A DNA stretch of 64,000 bases from a virus (IMGVR_UViG_3300042691_044682:1-64000), one strand, 5' to 3'. Positions 1-9,878 are shown, numbered from the stretch's first letter. The notes: generated by a model not told the origin, from the sequence alone. Program-made: numbers and translations.

Positions 1-2671
1 CCAGCGAACGCTCGGCCTCCGAGGTCGCGGGGGGCGAAGGCACAGGGGAGGCGGCAGCTTCGTCGGGCTCAAGGTCACGCGGCCAGGATCCATCGTCGGG
101 GGAATCGGTGGGGTCAGTCGGGGCAGCTTTCCTAAGCCGCGGGCGCAGAAGATTGCGGGCGATGCGCCACGCCGTCTCGGTCGGCCGATAGGTCGAGCTG
201 TAGGCCTCCGGGTGCACCGTGCGGTTCACGGCATCCCGGGTCAGGCCGACATCGGCATCACGCGGCGGACGGTTGTTGCCGACGCGCGATGCGAAGAAGT
301 CCATCCGGTGGGCGTAGTTCTGCGCCGTCTCGTTCGGCGGCAGGCGCAGTCGCCCGCGCAGGACAGACTCCCTTCGCCCCTGATCGACCGCGTGGATCGC
401 CATGCGGTGCGAGTCGGCCATCTGCAGGTCGGCGCGAGAGAGGGGGCGCTCGTTCGGGTGGGAATGGGTCAGGAACAGCGGGCGCTTGCCGGTACGGTGC
501 CGCTCCTCGATCGGATTGTAGGCCACCATGTTCTGGCTGCCGCCGATGGCAAGGAACTGCCGCTCCCCAGGGAACACAACCGCCCCATGCTCGCGCGCCG
601 GATCAAGGCGGGCCATCTGCCGGGTGTACTTCCAGGCATCCCGGTTGCCGCCCGGTAGCCACTTCCGCTCGTCCGGGGCCAGCACCTTCCCTTCCCACCG
701 GGCCCGGGCCGCCTCGCGCCGCTGGCGCAGCTGCGCCTCGGACAGGCCAGCGTGGCGGGGGTCGTTCTTGGCGAGCTTCCCAAGCGGCCTGAGGTAGATG
801 CGCTGCACCGGGGTGCTCGGGTCGGTGCGATATGTCCGGTTCCGCATCCGGACTGGTGGTGAAGGCGCCATCTCGACACGATCCACGCGCCATTTTCCCG
901 GCGGCAGCACGACCTCGTCCTCATGCCCATGCAGGCGCTTGTTCTGCTTGATGGCGCCGCGAAGTCGTGCGCCGCGCGCCCCCTGGAACACGAGCACCTG
1001 TTCGTCGGGGCGGGCGTTGATGAACTGCGAGGTCGTCGAGGGGCGGCGGCTGGTGCTGAGGACGTGTTTCGTCTCGTAGGTCGCGCCAGGGGTGGTCGGG
1101 ACCTTGTTCTTCGGCACGGCATGGTAGGGGATGCCGCGGAAAAGCGCGCGGAACGGCTTGGCCCGCTGTTCGGCGAAGGCGCGAAGGTTATCGGCCGCGG
1201 CGGCTTCGCGCGCGTCAAGCGCAGCGCCGGCCGCGCGCTTGACGTTTGCGTCCCAAGTGAGGCCCGGCGTCGCGCCGCCATACTGCCGCGCCGCCCAGTC
1301 GGGCCTCATCGTCGCCGCCGTCGTTTCCAGTGTTCTCTTGAAGCCGGGCTGACCCGAGCGATGACCAGCCGCTCGCATGGCTGCTCGGAGAGTTCGCCAG
1401 GTCGCAGCCTTGGCGAGCCGCCACCGCTTGAACAGGTGCACCCGCCCCATCGGGATCTCGGGCGCCTGGCGCACCCACGGGATCGGCGAGGTGCGGCCGC
1501 GGCGCAGCCCGCGGGGCAGGAACTGGCGGCGGGGCCCGGCGCCGTCGGCGGCGTGCATGGCGTCGCGAATGGTGGCCACGCGCGCGGCCAGCAGGGCCGG
1601 GTTCTGCTCCGGCGCCTCGCCCAGGGTCTTCTCGCCGAGCATGCGGAAGCGCGCCCGCAGGGCCTTCTTCTGCTCAGGCGACTTGAAGGCAGTGGCGATG
1701 GTCTGGTTGAGCACGCCCTTCTGCGTGCCGCTCAGGGTGACGTTCCAGGGGATGAAGCCGCGCCGCTGCGCCCAGCGCGCGCCGGCCGTCGTCAGCCCCA
1801 GCTTGCCCTTCGGCATGGCCTTCGTGAGGCCCCAGCCCAGCCCCGCCAGCGCCCCGCCAGCGGCGGCCACAGCCATGGCGCGGCGGCCCACCTTCGGGAT
1901 CCGGCGCATCCAGCGCTGCGCGCCGCGCACGCCCTCCGCCGCGGCTTCCCCTGCCCGCTTGGCGCCCTTCTCGCGCGTCGCCGCATCGAAGTGGCGGCGC
2001 CGCACATCGACGGAATCGCGCACCTCCCGCCGCATCTCCCGGAGGTCATCCCCGGTCGGGAAGACCAGCGGCTGCCGCGCACCGAGGTGGCGGGGCTCGA
2101 CCCAACCCTGCGCCAGGCGTTCGTCCATCGAGCCCTGCAGGCGGGCCGGGATCGCGGTCCGCTTGCCGTCGCGGCGCCGGCGCTGGCCGGCCACGTAGAA
2201 GCCGCCCTCCGCCCGCCCCGTGTCGCGAACTGGCCGCGGCATCGAGGCGGCCGCCATGCGGTTGTTGAGCCGCATCCGCTCCGCTGTCAGGGCCTTCACG
2301 TCCTCAGGCGTGACAAGGCCTTCCATGCGGCGGCTGGCATCCTGGTCGAACAGGCGGCTTTCCCGCCCGAGGTGCCGCCGCCAGACGGGCAGCGGCCAGT
2401 CGGAACGCACCTGGCGCTCCACGCGGGCCGCGGCGCGCGCGTGGCGCGCGATCTTCGCCTCGGCCTTCTGGCGCGCGGCGGCGGCCTTGGTCTTTCCCTG
2501 CTCGAGCGCGCGGGCGGCCAGCGCCCGGCGGCCGACATTCATGCTCTGGGCGGCGATCACCGCGGTGGCGGCGCCGGCGGCGGCGGCCTCCGCGTGGCCC
2601 ATCCAGCGCGCACGCGCCGCCTCGACCCGCTGGCGATGCTCGGCGGGGGTCAGCTCGCGCTTCTGGTCCAT
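1..2671 (-). CDS. Large virion-type protein with ADP-ribosyltransferase and JAMM motifs (C-terminus off window)
   Basis: Minus-strand reading frame open for 890 codons from ATG at 2671 and cut by the left window edge. It starts 3 bases from the upstream stop, so it is probably translationally coupled. Residues ~1-500 are basic and Ala/Arg-rich. Around residues 508-586 I see the R-S-E pattern of ADP-ribosyltransferases: LFRGIP (R512), LSTSR (S539-T-S541) and HEDEVVLPPG (E584-D-E586). Residues 736-748 read HSHPNERPLSRAD, a JAMM/JAB zinc-metalloprotease motif. Location after portal suggests a head or ejected protein; ART fusions to phage head proteins are known. NAD transfer and proteolysis are inferred from motifs only. 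Confidence 0.7.
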   Translation of the reverse strand, partial: MDQKRELTPAEHRQRVEAARARWMGHAEAAAAGAATAVIAAQSMNVGRRALAARALEQGKTKAAAARQKAEAKIARHARAAARVERQVRSDWPLPVWRRHLGRESRLFDQDASRRMEGLVTPEDVKALTAERMRLNNRMAAASMPRPVRDTGRAEGGFYVAGQRRRRDGKRTAIPARLQGSMDERLAQGWVEPRHLGARQPLVFPTGDDLREMRREVRDSVDVRRRHFDAATREKGAKRAGEAAAEGVRGAQRWMRRIPKVGRRAMAVAAAGGALAGLGWGLTKAMPKGKLGLTTAGARWAQRRGFIPWNVTLSGTQKGVLNQTIATAFKSPEQKKALRARFRMLGEKTLGEAPEQNPALLAARVATIRDAMHAADGAGPRRQFLPRGLRRGRTSPIPWVRQAPEIPMGRVHLFKRWRLAKAATWRTLRAAMRAAGHRSGQPGFKRTLETTAATMRPDWAARQYGGATPGLTWDANVKRAAGAALDAREAAAADNLRAFAEQRAKPFRALFRGIPYHAVPKNKVPTTPGATYETKHVLSTSRRPSTTSQFINARPDEQVLVFQGARGARLRGAIKQNKRLHGHEDEVVLPPGKWRVDRVEMAPSPPVRMRNRTYRTDPSTPVQRIYLRPLGKLAKNDPRHAGLSEAQLRQRREAARARWEGKVLAPDERKWLPGGNRDAWKYTRQMARLDPAREHGAVVFPGERQFLAIGGSQNMVAYNPIEERHRTGKRPLFLTHSHPNERPLSRADLQMADSHRMAIHAVDQGRRESVLRGRLRLPPNETAQNYAHRMDFFASRVGNNRPPRDADVGLTRDAVNRTVHPEAYSSTYRPTETAWRIARNLLRPRLRKAAPTDPTDSPDDGSWPRDLEPDEAAASPVPSPPATSEAERSL

Positions 2672-2673
2672 GC

Positions 2674-4845
2674 TCAGCCCGTGCGGGTCTGCTGCTCGTG
2701 GCGGCGGCGGGCGATTCCTTCGGTGATGCGCGCCGCGCCGTAGCCGGCGAGACCTGCACCGACGAAGCTCGCGACACCGATGGCGGCGCGGCCGCGCGGC
2801 GTGCGCCACCAGTGCGAGGAGCCGGCGCCGGCGCGCTTCGCTGCGGAGGCGCGACCGGCCTCAACCCGCTGGCGGCGCTCCGCCTCGGAGAGGTCGCCGC
2901 GCGTTGCCTTGGCGTCGCGGTCCCACATGCCGAGCTCGGCGTCAGCGGCCTGCTCCGTGGGGGGCTTCTGGCCGATCGGCGTGTAGAGCTGCTCGAGGCG
3001 GCGGCGATTGGCCATCCTGGTGTCCGCGTCGGGCGTCCAGGCATCCACCTTGGTGCGCCGGGTCGCGGCCTCCTCGGAGAACTCGGCCATCCGACGCTCC
3101 CAGGCGGCCTTGAACTCGGGGTCGCGGGCCATGCGATCGATCCTGGCCTGAGCACGCTTCGAGCGGCGCACGGGGATCGCCTTCGCCAGCGTGGTCGTCC
3201 CGTAGAGGCTCTGGCGCTTCTTGCGGTTGGCCTCGTCGGCCGAGGCCTTCGCGCGGCCGATCAGCGCGGCGGTCCCGGCGACGCTTGCCGCCCCAAGGGC
3301 GAGGCCCGCGGCGCGGCGACGCGCGATGGTGCCGCGATAGGTGGCCGGGAAGGAATCCTTGCCACCCCTCACGACCACATGGCCATCCTGCACCGCGAGC
3401 TGGGGGGCAGAACCAATCCGCGCCCGGTGCGCCTGGCGGTACTCCCGCATCTGCGGCGTCCAGGCCCGCCCCTTGGCGCGGGCGAAGGTCGAGGTCTGCT
3501 CGAAGGAGGCGACGGCTCCGGCCGGGGTGTCACGCAGCGCGGCCGGCGCGCGCGCCACGCGGCGCACGTTCGCCCGCCCGGTCACCAGCCCCAGCGCCTC
3601 GTCGGCGCCGTCGCGCGGCGCGTAGCGGCGCCCGGCCAGGCCGATGGCGCGGCGCCCGGCATGGTTCACGGCGCTCCCCGCGGCGCGCGCGCGGGCGGCA
3701 TAGGGCGCGGCCTTGTGGCCAGCCCAGGCCAGCCCGCGGCCGATCAGGCCGCCCCAGGCCTTCACCAGGGTGTGGTGCTCGTAGCGGTAGAAGCGGCGCT
3801 TCTCGTCCCCGGCGCGGTGGCCGTGGGTGTCCTTCGCGTAGAACTTCGCGGGCTTGAACGGCTTGCCGAACTCGTTGCGGAACGGCGCCCAGAGGCCCGG
3901 GCCGCGGTGCGCCTCGTTCGCCTCGCGATCGCCGGCCCGGAGATCCTGCAGGCGGCGCCGGGCATAGACCATGAAGGGCACCAGCGGCTTGAGCTTCGCC
4001 TTGCCCTCCTCCGTCATCCCGAACTTGAGCTCGAACAGGCCGAAGTCGTGCAGGGCGACGTTCGCCGCGTGGTTGTAGGCGGCGCGGACGGTCTTCTCGT
4101 CGGTGCCGGCGGGGATGTAGCGGGCGCCCTTCTCGGTGATGTCGGCGCGCAGGTCGCGGGTCTGCTTCCAGGCCCAGCGGCCGATGTCCTTCCACTTCTC
4201 CTCGCCGATTGCCTTGGGCACCTGGGGGCGGCGCTCGAGGGTGGCGTAGATCCCGCTCTCCGGAAGGTCCTTCGGCGGCGCCAGGGCGGCGCGCGGTGCG
4301 GCCTTCGGCGCCTCCGGCGGCGCGCGGTCGAGATCCTCGCGGTAGCGCTGGTAGGCCTGGCGCAGCGCGTAGGGCATGCGCTCGACCTCCTTCTTGCGGC
4401 CGACGGCACGCGCCGGGTCGTAGGCGGGCTGGTCCTCACGGTCCTCCCAAGGCTTGCCGCGGCTGTAGATGGAGGCGACGTGGCGCGGGCGCGGCGCGCC
4501 GGCGGCCATGCGTGACGTGCCCTTGGGGGCGAACTGGCCGTCGTCGTCGCGGCGGACCTTGCTCTCGTCGAAGAACTTGGCGAGGCCCCAGGCCCCGATG
4601 CCCTTCACGTAGGGCTGCAGTTCGGCCGGCGCGGCGGGTGGGCGCGGCGGCTTCGTCCACGACGAGCCGCCCATGCCGAACAGCCCGCTCTTCTTCCAGC
4701 GCCGCTGCGCCGTGCGCCAGCGATCCATGCGCGCCTGGTAGGGCTGCGCACGCATCTTCCGGGCCCGGTCCCACCGCGGGTCCTGCGCCTGCGACGAGAA
4801 GGTCGTCAGCGCGCCGGTCGGCGCCGTGGGGGCGGTCCCGCTCAT
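2674..4845 (-). CDS. Large basic virion-associated protein, unknown function
   Basis: A 723-residue, strongly basic Ala/Arg-rich protein directly after the portal gene (4 bases between them). Near residue 105 it has DDDGQFAPKGT, a short motif I know from phage proteins next to portals. Two hydrophobic Gly/Ala helices are visible near the C-terminus (RRAAGLALGAASVAGTAALI; GVASFVGAGLAGYGA). Position, charge and helices suggest an internal or ejected virion protein. No catalytic motif was seen. It may work with the next gene, which has a similar composition. Confidence 0.75.
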   Translation of the reverse strand: MSGTAPTAPTGALTTFSSQAQDPRWDRARKMRAQPYQARMDRWRTAQRRWKKSGLFGMGGSSWTKPPRPPAAPAELQPYVKGIGAWGLAKFFDESKVRRDDDGQFAPKGTSRMAAGAPRPRHVASIYSRGKPWEDREDQPAYDPARAVGRKKEVERMPYALRQAYQRYREDLDRAPPEAPKAAPRAALAPPKDLPESGIYATLERRPQVPKAIGEEKWKDIGRWAWKQTRDLRADITEKGARYIPAGTDEKTVRAAYNHAANVALHDFGLFELKFGMTEEGKAKLKPLVPFMVYARRRLQDLRAGDREANEAHRGPGLWAPFRNEFGKPFKPAKFYAKDTHGHRAGDEKRRFYRYEHHTLVKAWGGLIGRGLAWAGHKAAPYAARARAAGSAVNHAGRRAIGLAGRRYAPRDGADEALGLVTGRANVRRVARAPAALRDTPAGAVASFEQTSTFARAKGRAWTPQMREYRQAHRARIGSAPQLAVQDGHVVVRGGKDSFPATYRGTIARRRAAGLALGAASVAGTAALIGRAKASADEANRKKRQSLYGTTTLAKAIPVRRSKRAQARIDRMARDPEFKAAWERRMAEFSEEAATRRTKVDAWTPDADTRMANRRRLEQLYTPIGQKPPTEQAADAELGMWDRDAKATRGDLSEAERRQRVEAGRASAAKRAGAGSSHWWRTPRGRAAIGVASFVGAGLAGYGAARITEGIARRRHEQQTRTG

Positions 4846-4849
4846 CGTC

Positions 4850-6745
4850 TCAGCGCCGCCCGCTCAGGCGCCGCTCGAACGAGCGCACCGTCGCGCTCGC
4901 CTTCGGGTGCCCGGGGAGGCGGCTCAGCATCGCCGCGAGGGAGACGGGCGGGGAGGGCTGCACGGCCATGGCGGTCTCCCCCGAGCCCGCCATGTCACCT
5001 CCCTCCCCGCCCTCCTCCGGCCCCCCGACCGGAGTGCCTGGGGGCGCCGGCAGCGCCGGTCGCGGCGGCGCCCCACCTGTCCCCTGAGCTCCGGGCGAGA
5101 GACCGAACTGCGCCATCAGGCCGGGATCGGCGCCGGCGAGCGGATCCGCTCCCGGCGGCATGCCCATGCCGTCCATCGGCATCGGCGCCTGCGGCATGTC
5201 GAGCCCCTGTTCGATCGCCTTCTTCACCGACTTCACGGACATGAAGCCCAGCGGCCCCACCCCCCAGAAGATCGGCTCGCTGAGGCCAACGGGCTCGTCG
5301 CCGCGCTCCGTCCGCACGTCATCCACGCTCTTCACGCCGCGCTGCATGTCGGCGTGATCCATCGAGTGCTTCTCGGTGGGATCGAGCTTGCGGATGTCGT
5401 CCCAGACCAGCTCGTAGCTGGCCTCGCCGCAGAAGTCGGCGATCTCCTCGTCCACCAGGTTCTTCAGCCAGTCGAGCATCGGCTCGAGGCCTTCCTCGAG
5501 CGCCGTGTCGTAGGCGCTCTCGGCGGTGGCGCGGTTCATCTGCCGCACGAAGGGCGTGGGCGGCAGGCTGAAGGCGTAGGCGATGATACGGGCCAGCCAT
5601 TCGTCGAACTGGTCGATCAGCTGCGCGCCGCCCTCGCCATGCACCGGCCAGTAGCTCACGCCCGGCGGGACGAACTTCGCCCGGCGGCGGTGCGCCGGGT
5701 TCTCCATGATCCGGTCCCAGTACTCCTGGAGCATCGAGATCTGCTCGAGCGTCCAGCCCTCGGGGGTGGAGATCAGCGCCTCGGGGATGTTCCCTTCGGT
5801 GTAGTGGCTCAGCTGACCGGCCATGCGACGCAGGCCGATGTTGACGTAGGTGATGCACTGCTCGACGGGGCTGAGGCCGTAGACCTTGTTCGAGCGCGGG
5901 TTGCGCACCGAGTAGGTCAGCTCCTCGCAGGTGAAGTCGACCGCCGGCATGCCCTTCAGGACCTGCTGGTAGGCGGGGTTCGGCGGCAGCGGCCGGCGGC
6001 CCGTCTGGTCGATCAGGAGGCTGATCGTGGCCGGGTCGACGTACTCGATGGCGAAGGGGCTGCGGTCGAGGCGACGGCGGCGGTAGAGCGCCACGGCATC
6101 GAGCACGAGGGCGTCCTCGGCGATCGCGCGCACCCATTCCGTCCAGTTGTGGACCCCGTCCGGCCGGCGCCAGAACTTCTCAAGGTCGCGGCAGTTGTCG
6201 TCGGCTTTGGTCTTGTGGCGCTGCCCCGGCGGCTTCTTGGGCAGGATGGTCCACTTCACGCGGGCGAGCTGGTCCTTGCGGGTCTCGATCGCCAGCCGGA
6301 TGAGGTCGTAGGACGCCAGTCCGCGCAGCGTGTCGAAGGAGATCCCCTCGAAGCGCCGCGGCGTGGTGCTGAGGTTGTAGCCGGCGGGGAAGTCGAACTG
6401 GCGGCCGGCCACGTCGGCGCGCGGCACGACGGGCTGCATCGCCTGGCCGGGGCCGAACCATCCGTCCTGCAGGTTGCCGGGCGTGATGGCCGGGCGGATC
6501 ACCTCGGACGGGCCGACCGGGCGCTCGGATTCCTGGCCGCGCGGGGCCACGGCGCCGATCGACGGCTCGACGCGCCGCGCCATCTCGGCCTGGCGCATGC
6601 GCTCGGCCTCGGCGCCGAAGCCGATCATGCGGCGCACGAAGCCGGCGGCGCGCGAGATCATCCCGTCGTCGATCCGCGACATCCGTGCGCCTGGGATGGC
6701 GCCATGCGGATTCGCGCCCTGCTTGGGAAAGGGCTGATCGGCCAC
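4850..6745 (-). CDS. Phage portal protein
   Basis: A 631-residue protein with the body of HK97-like phage portal proteins: an N-terminal strand-rich region, a central stretch SPVEQCITYVNIGLRRMAG, then LIDQFDEWLARIIAYAF with the FSLPPTPFV segment typical of portals that contact DNA. The C-terminal ~110 residues are Pro/Gly/Met-rich and probably flexible. Portals form the dodecameric ring that is the DNA entry and exit vertex. It lies 1.4 kb downstream of the large terminase on the same strand, the usual order with small genes in between. Confidence 0.88.
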   Translation of the reverse strand: MADQPFPKQGANPHGAIPGARMSRIDDGMISRAAGFVRRMIGFGAEAERMRQAEMARRVEPSIGAVAPRGQESERPVGPSEVIRPAITPGNLQDGWFGPGQAMQPVVPRADVAGRQFDFPAGYNLSTTPRRFEGISFDTLRGLASYDLIRLAIETRKDQLARVKWTILPKKPPGQRHKTKADDNCRDLEKFWRRPDGVHNWTEWVRAIAEDALVLDAVALYRRRRLDRSPFAIEYVDPATISLLIDQTGRRPLPPNPAYQQVLKGMPAVDFTCEELTYSVRNPRSNKVYGLSPVEQCITYVNIGLRRMAGQLSHYTEGNIPEALISTPEGWTLEQISMLQEYWDRIMENPAHRRRAKFVPPGVSYWPVHGEGGAQLIDQFDEWLARIIAYAFSLPPTPFVRQMNRATAESAYDTALEEGLEPMLDWLKNLVDEEIADFCGEASYELVWDDIRKLDPTEKHSMDHADMQRGVKSVDDVRTERGDEPVGLSEPIFWGVGPLGFMSVKSVKKAIEQGLDMPQAPMPMDGMGMPPGADPLAGADPGLMAQFGLSPGAQGTGGAPPRPALPAPPGTPVGGPEEGGEGGDMAGSGETAMAVQPSPPVSLAAMLSRLPGHPKASATVRSFERRLSGRR

Positions 6746-6752
6746 GGATGTC

Positions 6753-7013
6753 TTACCAGAGCGCGATCAGGCCGGACGCGGAGCCGCCGGCGCGCACGCG
6801 GCGCAGCCGAAGCGGGTAGATCTGCCCGGCCACGAGGCCGGTGAACTGGAGCTCGACGCCGTCGGGCATGGTGGCATTCAGGGTGCCGCCGGTACCGACG
6901 TAGACGGCGCGTGTGTCCTGGGCGAAGTCTTCGGCGCTGTTGGGCGTGATGGTGGCAGCGCGATGGTAGGCGTACTGGTGCAGCAGGCCGCCCTGGAAGA
7001 TGTCATTGGCCAT
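6753..7013 (-). CDS. Small phage virion protein, spike/decoration-like
   Basis: An 86-residue all-beta-looking protein with TRAVYVGTGGTLNATMPDG, a hydrophobic strand, IYPLRLRRV and a C-terminal IALW. I recognise this pattern (potential decoration or spike proteins, often located by portal or tail genes) from many alphaproteobacterial phages, but its role is not established. It lies 7 bases before the portal start and belongs to the same minus-strand transcript. Confidence 0.65.
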   Translation of the reverse strand: MANDIFQGGLLHQYAYHRAATITPNSAEDFAQDTRAVYVGTGGTLNATMPDGVELQFTGLVAGQIYPLRLRRVRAGGSASGLIALW

Positions 7014-8141: not shown

Positions 8142-9683
8142 TCAGCCGAGGGCGGCCTGCACCTGGCTCTGCATGAACTCGAAGAAGCCGAGGTTGCCGC
8201 CGTAGAGGGCGTTGAAGGCGCCGGCGGCCGCGTCGAGCTGGTCGTCGTGCGATCCGTTGGGGAAGGCGCAGAGCTCGTCGATGAACTCCTCGTTCCAGGA
8301 GCCGCGCACCAGGAAGACCTGGCCGGCCTGCATCATGGAGGCGAGGCCGCGGGCGCGGGTCGCCTTGTCGCCGGACTCCTTCTCGATCTTCACCGTGTAG
8401 GGGGCGAGGAAGCGCACCATGGCCTGGGCCTGTGCGACGCCGGCCTGGCCGGGGTCCTGCGGGATCCAGATCGGCACCGCCATGCCGTCGGCCTGGGCGG
8501 TGGCCTTGATGGCTGAATCCACCTGCGCCGGCGTGTCGCGCAGGCGCAGCGCGTGCTCGATATAGACGCGGCCGATCTTGTCCTTGGAGGCGCGGACGCC
8601 GGCGGTCCAGTCGGGGTCCTTGCCCGGCTCGGGGACGGTGGCGGCGAGGTCCCAGCGGCGCAGGCGCCCCATGGCGTCGGCCGGGACGGCATCGACGAAC
8701 TGGAACCAGCCCCGCTTGAACAGGCCGCCATCGCGCGGGCCGGGGCGCTGCTGCAGCTGGCCGGCGACGGCGTATTGCCCGAGCGCACGCTCGAGGCTCT
8801 TGAGGGCGTCCTCGCTGATGCGGGTCTTGTGGAGGATCTCGCCCGGCTCGGTGCGAGGGTCCTTCGCGTGGCGGTCCGGATGATCCGGCTCGAACCGCAT
8901 GGGCAGGACCACCTTGTGGTAGCCCCGCTTCATGCACCAGCCCGCGAGGTCCTCGGCGTGGACGCGCTGCTGGATGACCATCTTCACGCCGCGGTCGGGC
9001 TCGTTGAGGCGTGATGGAATGGCCTCGCCCCACCAGAGCAGCACGGAGTTGCGCTCGGCCTCGCTCTCCGCCTTCTGGGCGGGGTGGGGGTCGTCGACCA
9101 TGACGTAGTCGCCGCCGTGGCCGGTGACGTTGCTGCCGGGGGTGCAGGCGAAGCGGTGACCGCCTGCGGTGGTCTCGTAGTAGGTCTTGTTGTCCTGGTC
9201 CTTGACGATGGTGACGCCTGGGTGGCGCATGCCATCGGACAGGATGGTCGCGGCGACGTAGGCGGAACCGGCGCCCCAGCGCTTCTGGTACCAGGTGCTC
9301 TTCACGAGCCGGCGGCACTTCACGGCGTCCCTGGTGGCCAGGGTCATTTCGTTGGAGCCGCAGAGGAACTTGGCGGAGGGGTGCCAGGTCCAGACCCAGG
9401 CCGGGAAGGCCACGGACATGATCTGGGACTTGAGGGAGCGCGGCGGGATGCAGAAGACCGCCTCGCGGTGCTGCCGGCGGGCGACGGCCTCCATTTCCTC
9501 GCAGAGGAGGTCGATGTGCCAGTTCCACAGCAGGTGGGCCGGGTCCATGAAGCGCCAGGCCATGCGCAGGAAGGCGCCGAAGCGGCGCGGGCCGAGGGTG
9601 GCCTCGAGGGCGATGCGCTCGGGGCTATCGAGGGAAGCCAGACGGCGCGTTCGCGGGGGAACGATCGCGGCGATCTGGTTCAT
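8142..9683 (-). CDS. terL: Terminase large subunit
   Basis: 513 residues from ATG 9683, which overlaps the stop of the upstream tiny gene (ATGA). ATPase part: Walker A-like PPRSLKSQIMS, and VMVDDPHP as Walker B with following acidic residues. Nuclease part: RRWDLAAT, and the C-terminal HDDQLDAAAGAF that closes the RNase H-like nuclease of TerL proteins. TerL pumps DNA into proheads through the portal and cuts the concatemer. A longer upstream extension of the frame is Arg-rich shadow and was rejected. Confidence 0.93.
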   Translation of the reverse strand: MNQIAAIVPPRTRRLASLDSPERIALEATLGPRRFGAFLRMAWRFMDPAHLLWNWHIDLLCEEMEAVARRQHREAVFCIPPRSLKSQIMSVAFPAWVWTWHPSAKFLCGSNEMTLATRDAVKCRRLVKSTWYQKRWGAGSAYVAATILSDGMRHPGVTIVKDQDNKTYYETTAGGHRFACTPGSNVTGHGGDYVMVDDPHPAQKAESEAERNSVLLWWGEAIPSRLNEPDRGVKMVIQQRVHAEDLAGWCMKRGYHKVVLPMRFEPDHPDRHAKDPRTEPGEILHKTRISEDALKSLERALGQYAVAGQLQQRPGPRDGGLFKRGWFQFVDAVPADAMGRLRRWDLAATVPEPGKDPDWTAGVRASKDKIGRVYIEHALRLRDTPAQVDSAIKATAQADGMAVPIWIPQDPGQAGVAQAQAMVRFLAPYTVKIEKESGDKATRARGLASMMQAGQVFLVRGSWNEEFIDELCAFPNGSHDDQLDAAAGAFNALYGGNLGFFEFMQSQVQAALG

Positions 9684-9811
9684 CCGGAGTTTTTCGTACG
9701 CCCCCAGATGGCGTGGTGGGCGAGGGCGCCGAGGCCGAAGCCGCTGAGGAAGATCACCCCGGCGATCAGCGCGAGCTCCCAGAGCATGTCGGCAAGGATC
9801 GCGTTGGGCAT
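9680..9811 (-). CDS. Tiny single-pass membrane protein before terminase
   Basis: 43 residues: a short N-terminus, one hydrophobic segment (LALIAGVIFLSGFGLGALA) and a short basic tail ending KNSG. GGAG lies 11 bases before ATG 9811. The stop overlaps the terminase start by ATGA, so translation is probably coupled. The reading was made by translating the minus strand directly. Function unknown; a small holin-like or envelope role is conceivable. Confidence 0.6.
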   Translation of the reverse strand: MPNAILADMLWELALIAGVIFLSGFGLGALAHHAIWGRTKNSG

Positions 9812-9878
9812 CGCGTCGGAAGCTCCGGACGCAGAAGGGGCGGCCGGACAATCAAGTAGCCCGGCCGAACCCTGGGGG

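Follow-up and report, generated by a model that had tools for sequence, protein, structure and literature searches.

The question raised by the left end of IMGVR_UViG_3300042691_044682:1-64000, a stretch of 64,000 nucleotides (the window) that forms the left-hand part of a viral contig of 92,321 bp, is what is made by a gene that carries ADP-ribosyltransferase (ART)-type and JAMM-type motifs in one frame and leaves the stretch at its left edge. An earlier note, made from the sequence alone, had taken the product for a virion-type protein in which a protease matures or releases an effector. The best explanation as a whole, to which a probability of about 0.6 is given, is a MuF-type head protein that delivers ART and JAB effectors.

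The frame is on the minus strand and is open from an ATG at 2671 (889 amino acids, aa) to the left edge, where the earlier note had it end. It is read as coding because GC at third codon positions is high throughout (0.76-0.92 along the whole frame in the window). Sequence past the edge was obtained from two viral contigs. The first, L005 (IMGVR_UViG_3300031951_014761), was found by viral-contig search, is 99.85% identical to window positions 1-648, and continues the frame. The second, L006 (IMGVR_UViG_3300042691_039995), shares 5,496 bp with L005 and, at 100% identity, 69 bp with the far (right) end of the contig that contains the window. Both contig ends are thus joined, and the phage genome is therefore circular or circularly permuted, at about 99.6 kb. 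The full open reading frame (ORF) continues uninterrupted into L005, where it ends, and encodes 1,513 aa, with residues 676-889 common to the window and L005. Its parts, which include two copies of a 27-residue basic tag found with a hidden Markov model (HMM), are as follows.

1..2671, minus strand: first 889 aa of a MuF-family minor head protein of 1,513 aa, from ATG 2671 to its exit at the left edge; continuation in L005/L006.

2591..2671, minus strand: tag copy 1, aa 1-27, MDQKRELTPAEHRQRVEAARARWMGHA (tag HMM).

1232..2590, minus strand: aa 28-480, a mainly helical, basic region containing an Ala/Gly-rich segment; weak similarity to the MuF protein of a related phage, L047 (E=1e-4 to 3e-10).

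776..1210, minus strand: R-S-E ADP-ribosyltransferase-like region, aa 488-632 (R512, STS 539-541, E584/E586), from motifs alone.

680..766, minus strand: tag copy 2, aa 636-664, LSEAQLRQRREAARARWEGK, between the ART-like and JAB-like regions (tag HMM).

272..634, minus strand: JAB/JAMM-like region, aa 680-800, with candidate metal or catalytic residues E694, H736, H738, S745 and D748 (motif and weak Prok-JAB match).

5..271, minus strand: linker to the MuF domain, aa 801-889, leading to the part outside the window.

L005 645-2519, beyond the window's left edge: MuF domain, intein and stop.

The C-terminal part matched Phage_Mu_F (PF04233; E=1.7e-8, 35.6 bits vs. a cut-off of 29.6) and PHROG 3517, head morphogenesis (E=1e-51); its match to TIGR01641 fell below the cut-off of that family. 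It matched 453 phage records and was 37-41% identical to the MuF of Pseudomonas phage KPP23 (protein of 325 aa), Roseobacter phage RDJL Phi 2 (~320 aa) and Rhizobium phages (533 aa). MuF proteins belong to the minor components of the head and lie near the portal, as is established for SPP1 gp7 and Mu gpF. Because the full ORF ends in a MuF domain that scores above the cut-off, the prediction that the gene encodes a virion protein of the MuF-type minor head class is well supported, and the virion-type character proposed earlier gains from it. Whole-protein scans of viral and genome contigs returned no relative except L005. The window protein had no Pfam match to MPTase-PolyVal or ArdC hub domains, and no neighbouring immunity gene was identified.

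In the ART-like region, R512 (window 1136-1138) is followed by S539-T540-S541 (S539 at 1055-1057) and by E584 and E586 (E586 at 914-916), with 74 residues from R to E. A strict R-S-E pattern never arose when the full 1,513-aa protein was shuffled 20,000 times, and in 12,620 six-frame ORFs from 218 loci (2.28 million residues) it was confined to the window gene. A loose R-S-E pattern occurred in 1,093 of 20,000 shuffles (5%), and therefore the looseness of the pattern matters. The flanks of the motifs are alike in the window protein (LFRGIP..VLSTSR..EDEVVLPPGKWRV) and in T4 ModA (LWRGVP..VSASYD..EQEVMIPAGSVFRI). The ART assignment was made because of the motif order alone; residues 488-632 very probably adopt an ART fold.

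In the JAB/JAMM-like region, H736-S-H738-P, S745 and D748 are present (H736 at window 464-466, D748 at 428-430), H736 lies 150 residues from the ART glutamate, and E694 is the candidate metal-binding glutamate. The HxHP..S..D pattern occurred in 0 of 20,000 shuffles of the full protein. Prok-JAB (PF14464) aligned from position 13 to 100 of its 114 (E=0.014 on the segment, 0.0013 at one-genome scale). The spacing from H to S is 6 residues; the usual spacing in JAB domains is 7. A JAB fold of residues 680-800 is considered probable. The R (LFRG), STS, E-D-E and HSHP...S..D motifs of the earlier note are thus all there, on the minus strand and with spacings of 74 and 150 residues, and both types of motif are in one uninterrupted ORF; of the identities proposed for the two regions, the motifs stood, the JAB profile match was weak and below its cut-off, and a profile or fold match for the ART was not obtained.

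The same phage encodes another JAB protein (L003 9155-10186), which is an ordinary JAB-NlpC tail-assembly protein and lies outside the finding. A MuF protein at L154 2642-4240 has a RadC/JAB-like domain (aa 331-533; HNHPSG..FSVSD; RadC E=0.027) on the C-terminal side of MuF, and no ART was recognised in it.

Several results weigh against the effector-delivery explanation. The ART region had no match in Pfam, NCBIfam, PHROG or PDB sequence searches, PF03496 and PF18760 did not match it at E<=10, and a T4 ModA/ModB profile did not single out the window ORF. Single-sequence AlphaFold2 prediction of the ART region without homologues gave a predicted local distance difference test (pLDDT) score of 46 and a predicted template modelling (pTM) score of 0.42, and Foldseek on that low-confidence model returned no match below E=0.1. 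The JAB region, predicted likewise without homologues, had a pLDDT of 38.5, and its Prok-JAB score of 15 bits is below the curated cut-off of 25. Searches of 50,697 phage records, of viral and genome contigs and of 385 genomes of one class returned nothing related to the ART or JAB region. Furthermore, the cargo is N-terminal to MuF, whereas published MuF effectors are mostly C-terminal. The tblastn matches of the ART or JAB part, to a 110-aa ORF of Arthrobacter phage Niktson (E=0.3), a microvirus and an alanyl-tRNA synthetase (L218), were discarded as chance matches. That one or both motif sets arose by chance in a region of another fold would agree with the lack of profile or structure support for the ART; however, neither strict pattern came up in the shuffles, strict R-S-E did not come up in the other ORFs, and the JAB motif is within a nearly full-length Prok-JAB alignment. 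This account is judged quite improbable.

A scan with an alignment of the MuF domain returned nine phages with MuF domains 40-57% identical, three of them on 93-105-kb contigs, and the MuF proteins of all nine have long N-terminal regions. In L046, a complete sigma-70-family factor is N-terminal to MuF (Sigma70_r2 6e-9 and r4 2.7e-6, over the cut-off; PHROG 351 E=2e-20); it is at 3332-4220, in frame within the MuF ORF (2759-6946, stop to stop), and is flanked by two tag copies. In L048, the N-terminal part contains an inorganic pyrophosphatase (PF18823 InPase, 1e-38, above cut-off), and in L047 it contains an ART-like 'LVYRG...GIFVTPSKGFARDYA' region with no profile match. No JAB was recognised in the MuF proteins of L046, L047 and L048. 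What is new is that related phages carry different cargo in the same N-terminal part, among tag copies. The remaining relatives (L049-L054 group) have helical N-terminal sequence alone, with no recognisable enzymes, and these, being most of the nine, together with the weak profile scores, would suit a reading in which the ART and JAB regions are degenerate or merely structural filler of an N-terminal extension of a head protein. On the other hand, the catalytic positions of both domains are all intact, codon usage is normal, and each pattern has a chance of less than 1 in 20,000; filler is accordingly regarded as distinctly unlikely.

The tag has the consensus KRTPGxPLSEAERxQRRxAARARW. The window phage and all relatives have it in the N-terminal region of their MuF proteins, at or near the start in most and after the pyrophosphatase in L048; the window, L046 and L047 have a second copy beside the cargo. 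Further proteins of the head module contain it (the 723-aa ORF next to the MuF gene and the protease protein; L006 3792-5990), no other part of the ~99.6-kb genome does, and it is also in the head modules of L046-L054. A tblastn search of the 50,697 phage records returned no match to the tag, which is a weak test for 27 residues. The tag may be a signal for loading into the head or for release.

The neighbouring genes in the window are the following.

2674..4845, minus strand: ORF of 723 aa between the portal and MuF genes, with a degenerate tag near its C-terminus and a 'RDDDGQFAPKGTS' motif.

2836..2895, minus strand: tag copy in the 723-aa ORF, DLSEAERRQRVEAGRASAAK (tag HMM).

4850..6745, minus strand: portal protein (PF04860 E=1e-12, PHROG 2662 E=3e-60).

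8142..9851, minus strand: terminase large subunit (PF17289 E=7e-18, PHROG 38 E=7e-74).

The order in the head module is terminase, portal, 723-aa ORF, MuF gene, two small ORFs, GIY-YIG and XkdF-type protease; the other end of the contig encodes a 1,309-aa protein with no family match, a 525-aa protein and a major-capsid-like protein (PHROG 13692 E=2e-119). The MuF gene is therefore placed between the portal and the prohead protease and capsid genes, and not right after the portal as had been stated, with the 723-aa ORF intervening. The window's MuF protein was not found among the portal relatives L009-L035. A 'RDENGRFAPKGGSG'-like motif and Ala/Gly-rich membrane-like segments are common to L004 8392-12321 (minus strand), window 2674-4845 and L006 5842-7134. 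A GIY-YIG/NUMOD3 homing endonuclease is encoded at L005 4295-5002 (plus strand) and a second GIY-YIG-like ORF at L004 2123-2926 (minus strand); with these ORFs inside the head and tail modules, one genome therefore holds several homing elements.

The module bears on the protease role that the earlier note gave to the JAB domain, namely maturation or release of the ART. Such a role would fit the fact that a single chain holds both, separated by a tag, and autoproteolysis is common in polymorphic toxins (PMC3482391). However, known JAMM peptidases cut ubiquitin-like tails and not polypeptide linkers, and a separate XkdF/S78-type maturation protease is encoded within the same head module. JAB domains also occur on MuF or polyvalent proteins without ART (L154; PMC5512222), and the relatives with other cargo (L046, L047, L048) lack a recognised JAB in MuF. 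With a prohead protease encoded nearby and JAB-like domains found on MuF without a recognised ART, there is no need for a release-protease role of the JAB, and such a role is considered very improbable.

The location in a late head module would also agree with an ART/JAB half that acts late in the producing cell, modifying proteins of the host or the virion while particles assemble, without being delivered; ARTs protecting the packaging apparatus were raised as an alternative in PMC9503650. Against late action, MuF, to which the cargo is fused with no obvious separate start, is known as a component of virions, and T4 Alt and the predicted polyvalent proteins are head-packaged. A sigma factor in the same place in a relative would, moreover, make most sense early. 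Action confined to the producing cell is thus taken to be unlikely.

Under the preferred explanation, delivery of ART and JAB effectors by a MuF-type head protein, the enlarged N-terminal half of the protein would be the cargo, with ART-like and JAB/JAMM-like domains and a tag before or after each. By analogy, MuF would anchor the protein inside the capsid near the portal, once its intein had been spliced out, since only then would the domain be functional, and the XkdF-type prohead protease may trim the MuF-cargo protein. At infection, the ART and JAB cargo would exit with the DNA into the next host, where the ART, like T4 Alt, would probably ADP-ribosylate a host protein at an early stage. 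A separate second effector is the probable role of the JAB; the leading guess is that it removes ubiquitin-like conjugates made by defences of the cyclic-oligonucleotide-based anti-phage signalling system (CBASS) or Bil type, and the alternative is nucleic-acid processing, as proposed for RadC-type JABs. The sigma factor of L046 is possibly delivered by the virion as well.

The MuF domain is interrupted by a 319-residue intein (L005 nt 1491-2447) immediately before the Cys of its C-terminal CRC motif (N/CRC, the slash marking the junction), and only about 23 residues remain after it to the C-terminus of the protein. The intein reads CLLPGA...VNHN/CRC, with Cys1 and Asn-Cys+1 present and the terminal splicing blocks in place. 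The TIGR01443 profile scored 15.8 bits, over its cut-off of 15.6, and PF14890 (E=4e-7) and TIGR01445 were just under theirs. At L018 2065-5250, a portal-MuF fusion (1,061 aa) has a homologous intein at the identical N/CRC site. Within the intein DNA there is a further ORF.

L005 1509-2411, minus strand: antisense ORF in the MuF intein, with helix-turn-helix domains and a Vsr-like nuclease (PDB 3r3p, HTH_58).

With an alignment of seven members, the best PDB match of the antisense ORF was 3r3p, 'mobile intron protein' (E=2e-8), which we take to be I-Bth0305I. HTH_58 was above cut-off in the antisense ORFs of L005 and L039, and tblastn matched the ORF to 65 phage records. At 17 of the 17 loci examined (L005, L018, L039-L042, L046, L057, L219-L227), which come from Gordonia, Pseudomonas, Haemophilus (Aaphi23), Edwardsiella, Cronobacter, Idiomarinaceae, Salmonella and Vibrio phages and from viral contigs, the ORF is on the strand opposite a MuF or head-morphogenesis gene, and the back-to-back phase is the same throughout. 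Two or three genes past MuF, an 'RNA ligase' (in one record, a capsid maturation protein) is annotated in 5 of 5 Gordonia records (L039, L219-L222).

Low-GC members had no blocking codons across 307-340 codons (P 3e-8 to 3e-6), with higher-GC members weaker or uninformative. Between L005 and L018, the antisense proteins aligned over 245 aa with 5 gaps, and the sense inteins had 55 gaps in mid-alignment. Differences between Gordonia phages Sedona and ViaConlectus were 43, 19 and 84 by antisense codon position. Amino-acid identity was 80% antisense vs. 62% sense for this pair, and 83% vs. 77% for Angelicage and Vivi2, whereas the extein upstream had the normal sense bias (2, 1, 44). In mid-intein of L005 the sense GC pattern is inverted, with GC of 0.84 at first codon positions and 0.72 at third positions vs. 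0.95 at third positions in MuF. The absence of blocking codons, the gap pattern, the codon-position differences and the GC inversion show that the antisense ORF is coding, with evidence of selection at codon level, and the MuF intein DNA is predicted to encode an I-Bth0305I-like homing endonuclease on its opposite strand. The codon-position analysis ruled out that the similarity of the antisense ORF is an echo of the sense intein. In a literature search, mostly without subscription papers, no account of an intein with an opposite-strand endonuclease came up, and the novelty of the arrangement is probable, not certain. The nearest case was the 'hidden' element of ShiLan (PMC11855218), which is alike in that the insertion is read through in one frame and the endonuclease in another. 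The ShiLan endonuclease is an HNH, read in another frame from a GTG near the 5' end of the insertion, with no splicing domain; unlike it, the endonuclease found with MuF is encoded within a true intein, on the strand opposite.

Tentatively, at somewhat less than even odds, MuF may be a loading slot in these ~100-kb phages. Tag-bounded enzymes would be placed N-terminal to it, each relative would inject a different cargo (ART and JAB in the window phage, the sigma factor in L046, InPase in L048 and the ART-like region in L047), the tag would be the head-loading or release signal, and the intein of the same gene would hold the opposite-strand endonuclease.

The ART-MuF fusion itself is already known, and the window protein is a variant of MuF-carried effectors (PMC9503650). 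ART-MuF fusions and head packaging of ARTs were described there, with ejection thought likely; the window gene is like them in that a predicted ART of R-S-E type is part of a MuF protein, that terminase and portal are encoded with it, and that it is predicted to be a head-packaged early effector. It differs in the N-terminal position of its ART, the added JAB, the tag copies, the lack of a PF03496 or PF18760 match, and the intein in MuF. The polyvalent proteins of phages and conjugative elements (PMC5512222) are likewise large, multidomain, predicted to be injected and encoded next to late genes, and their repertoire includes ART, MuF and RadC-JAB domains; unlike them, the window protein has no MPTase or ArdC hub domain. 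No counterpart of a sigma factor as MuF cargo, as in L046, was found in the passages of that source that were consulted. As in MuF polymorphic toxins (PMC5576092, PMC3482391), MuF carries variable enzymatic domains; those toxins are C-terminal and belong to temperate phages, whereas the window cargo is N-terminal and lacks an identified immunity gene, and the closest prophage-like relative is only a 3.7-kb fragment. The R, S and ExE motifs have the same order as in T4 Alt, ModA and ModB (ModA was the one compared), but there is no detectable sequence homology between ModA/ModB and the window ORF. The E...HxHP...S..D residues and the partial Prok-JAB alignment are like those of Prok-JAB, RadC and Tox-JAB, and the score below the curated cut-off and the fusion upstream of MuF are unlike them.

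Head-carried proteins sent in with phage DNA are known for few phages. If the exchangeable N-terminal MuF cargo and its tag are what they seem, such proteins could be listed from sequence. If it is injected, the L046 sigma factor would be a direct, immediate takeover of host transcription. The opposite-strand endonuclease in MuF inteins would be a compact selfish element, its DNA read both ways, that has been overlooked in annotating these genes.
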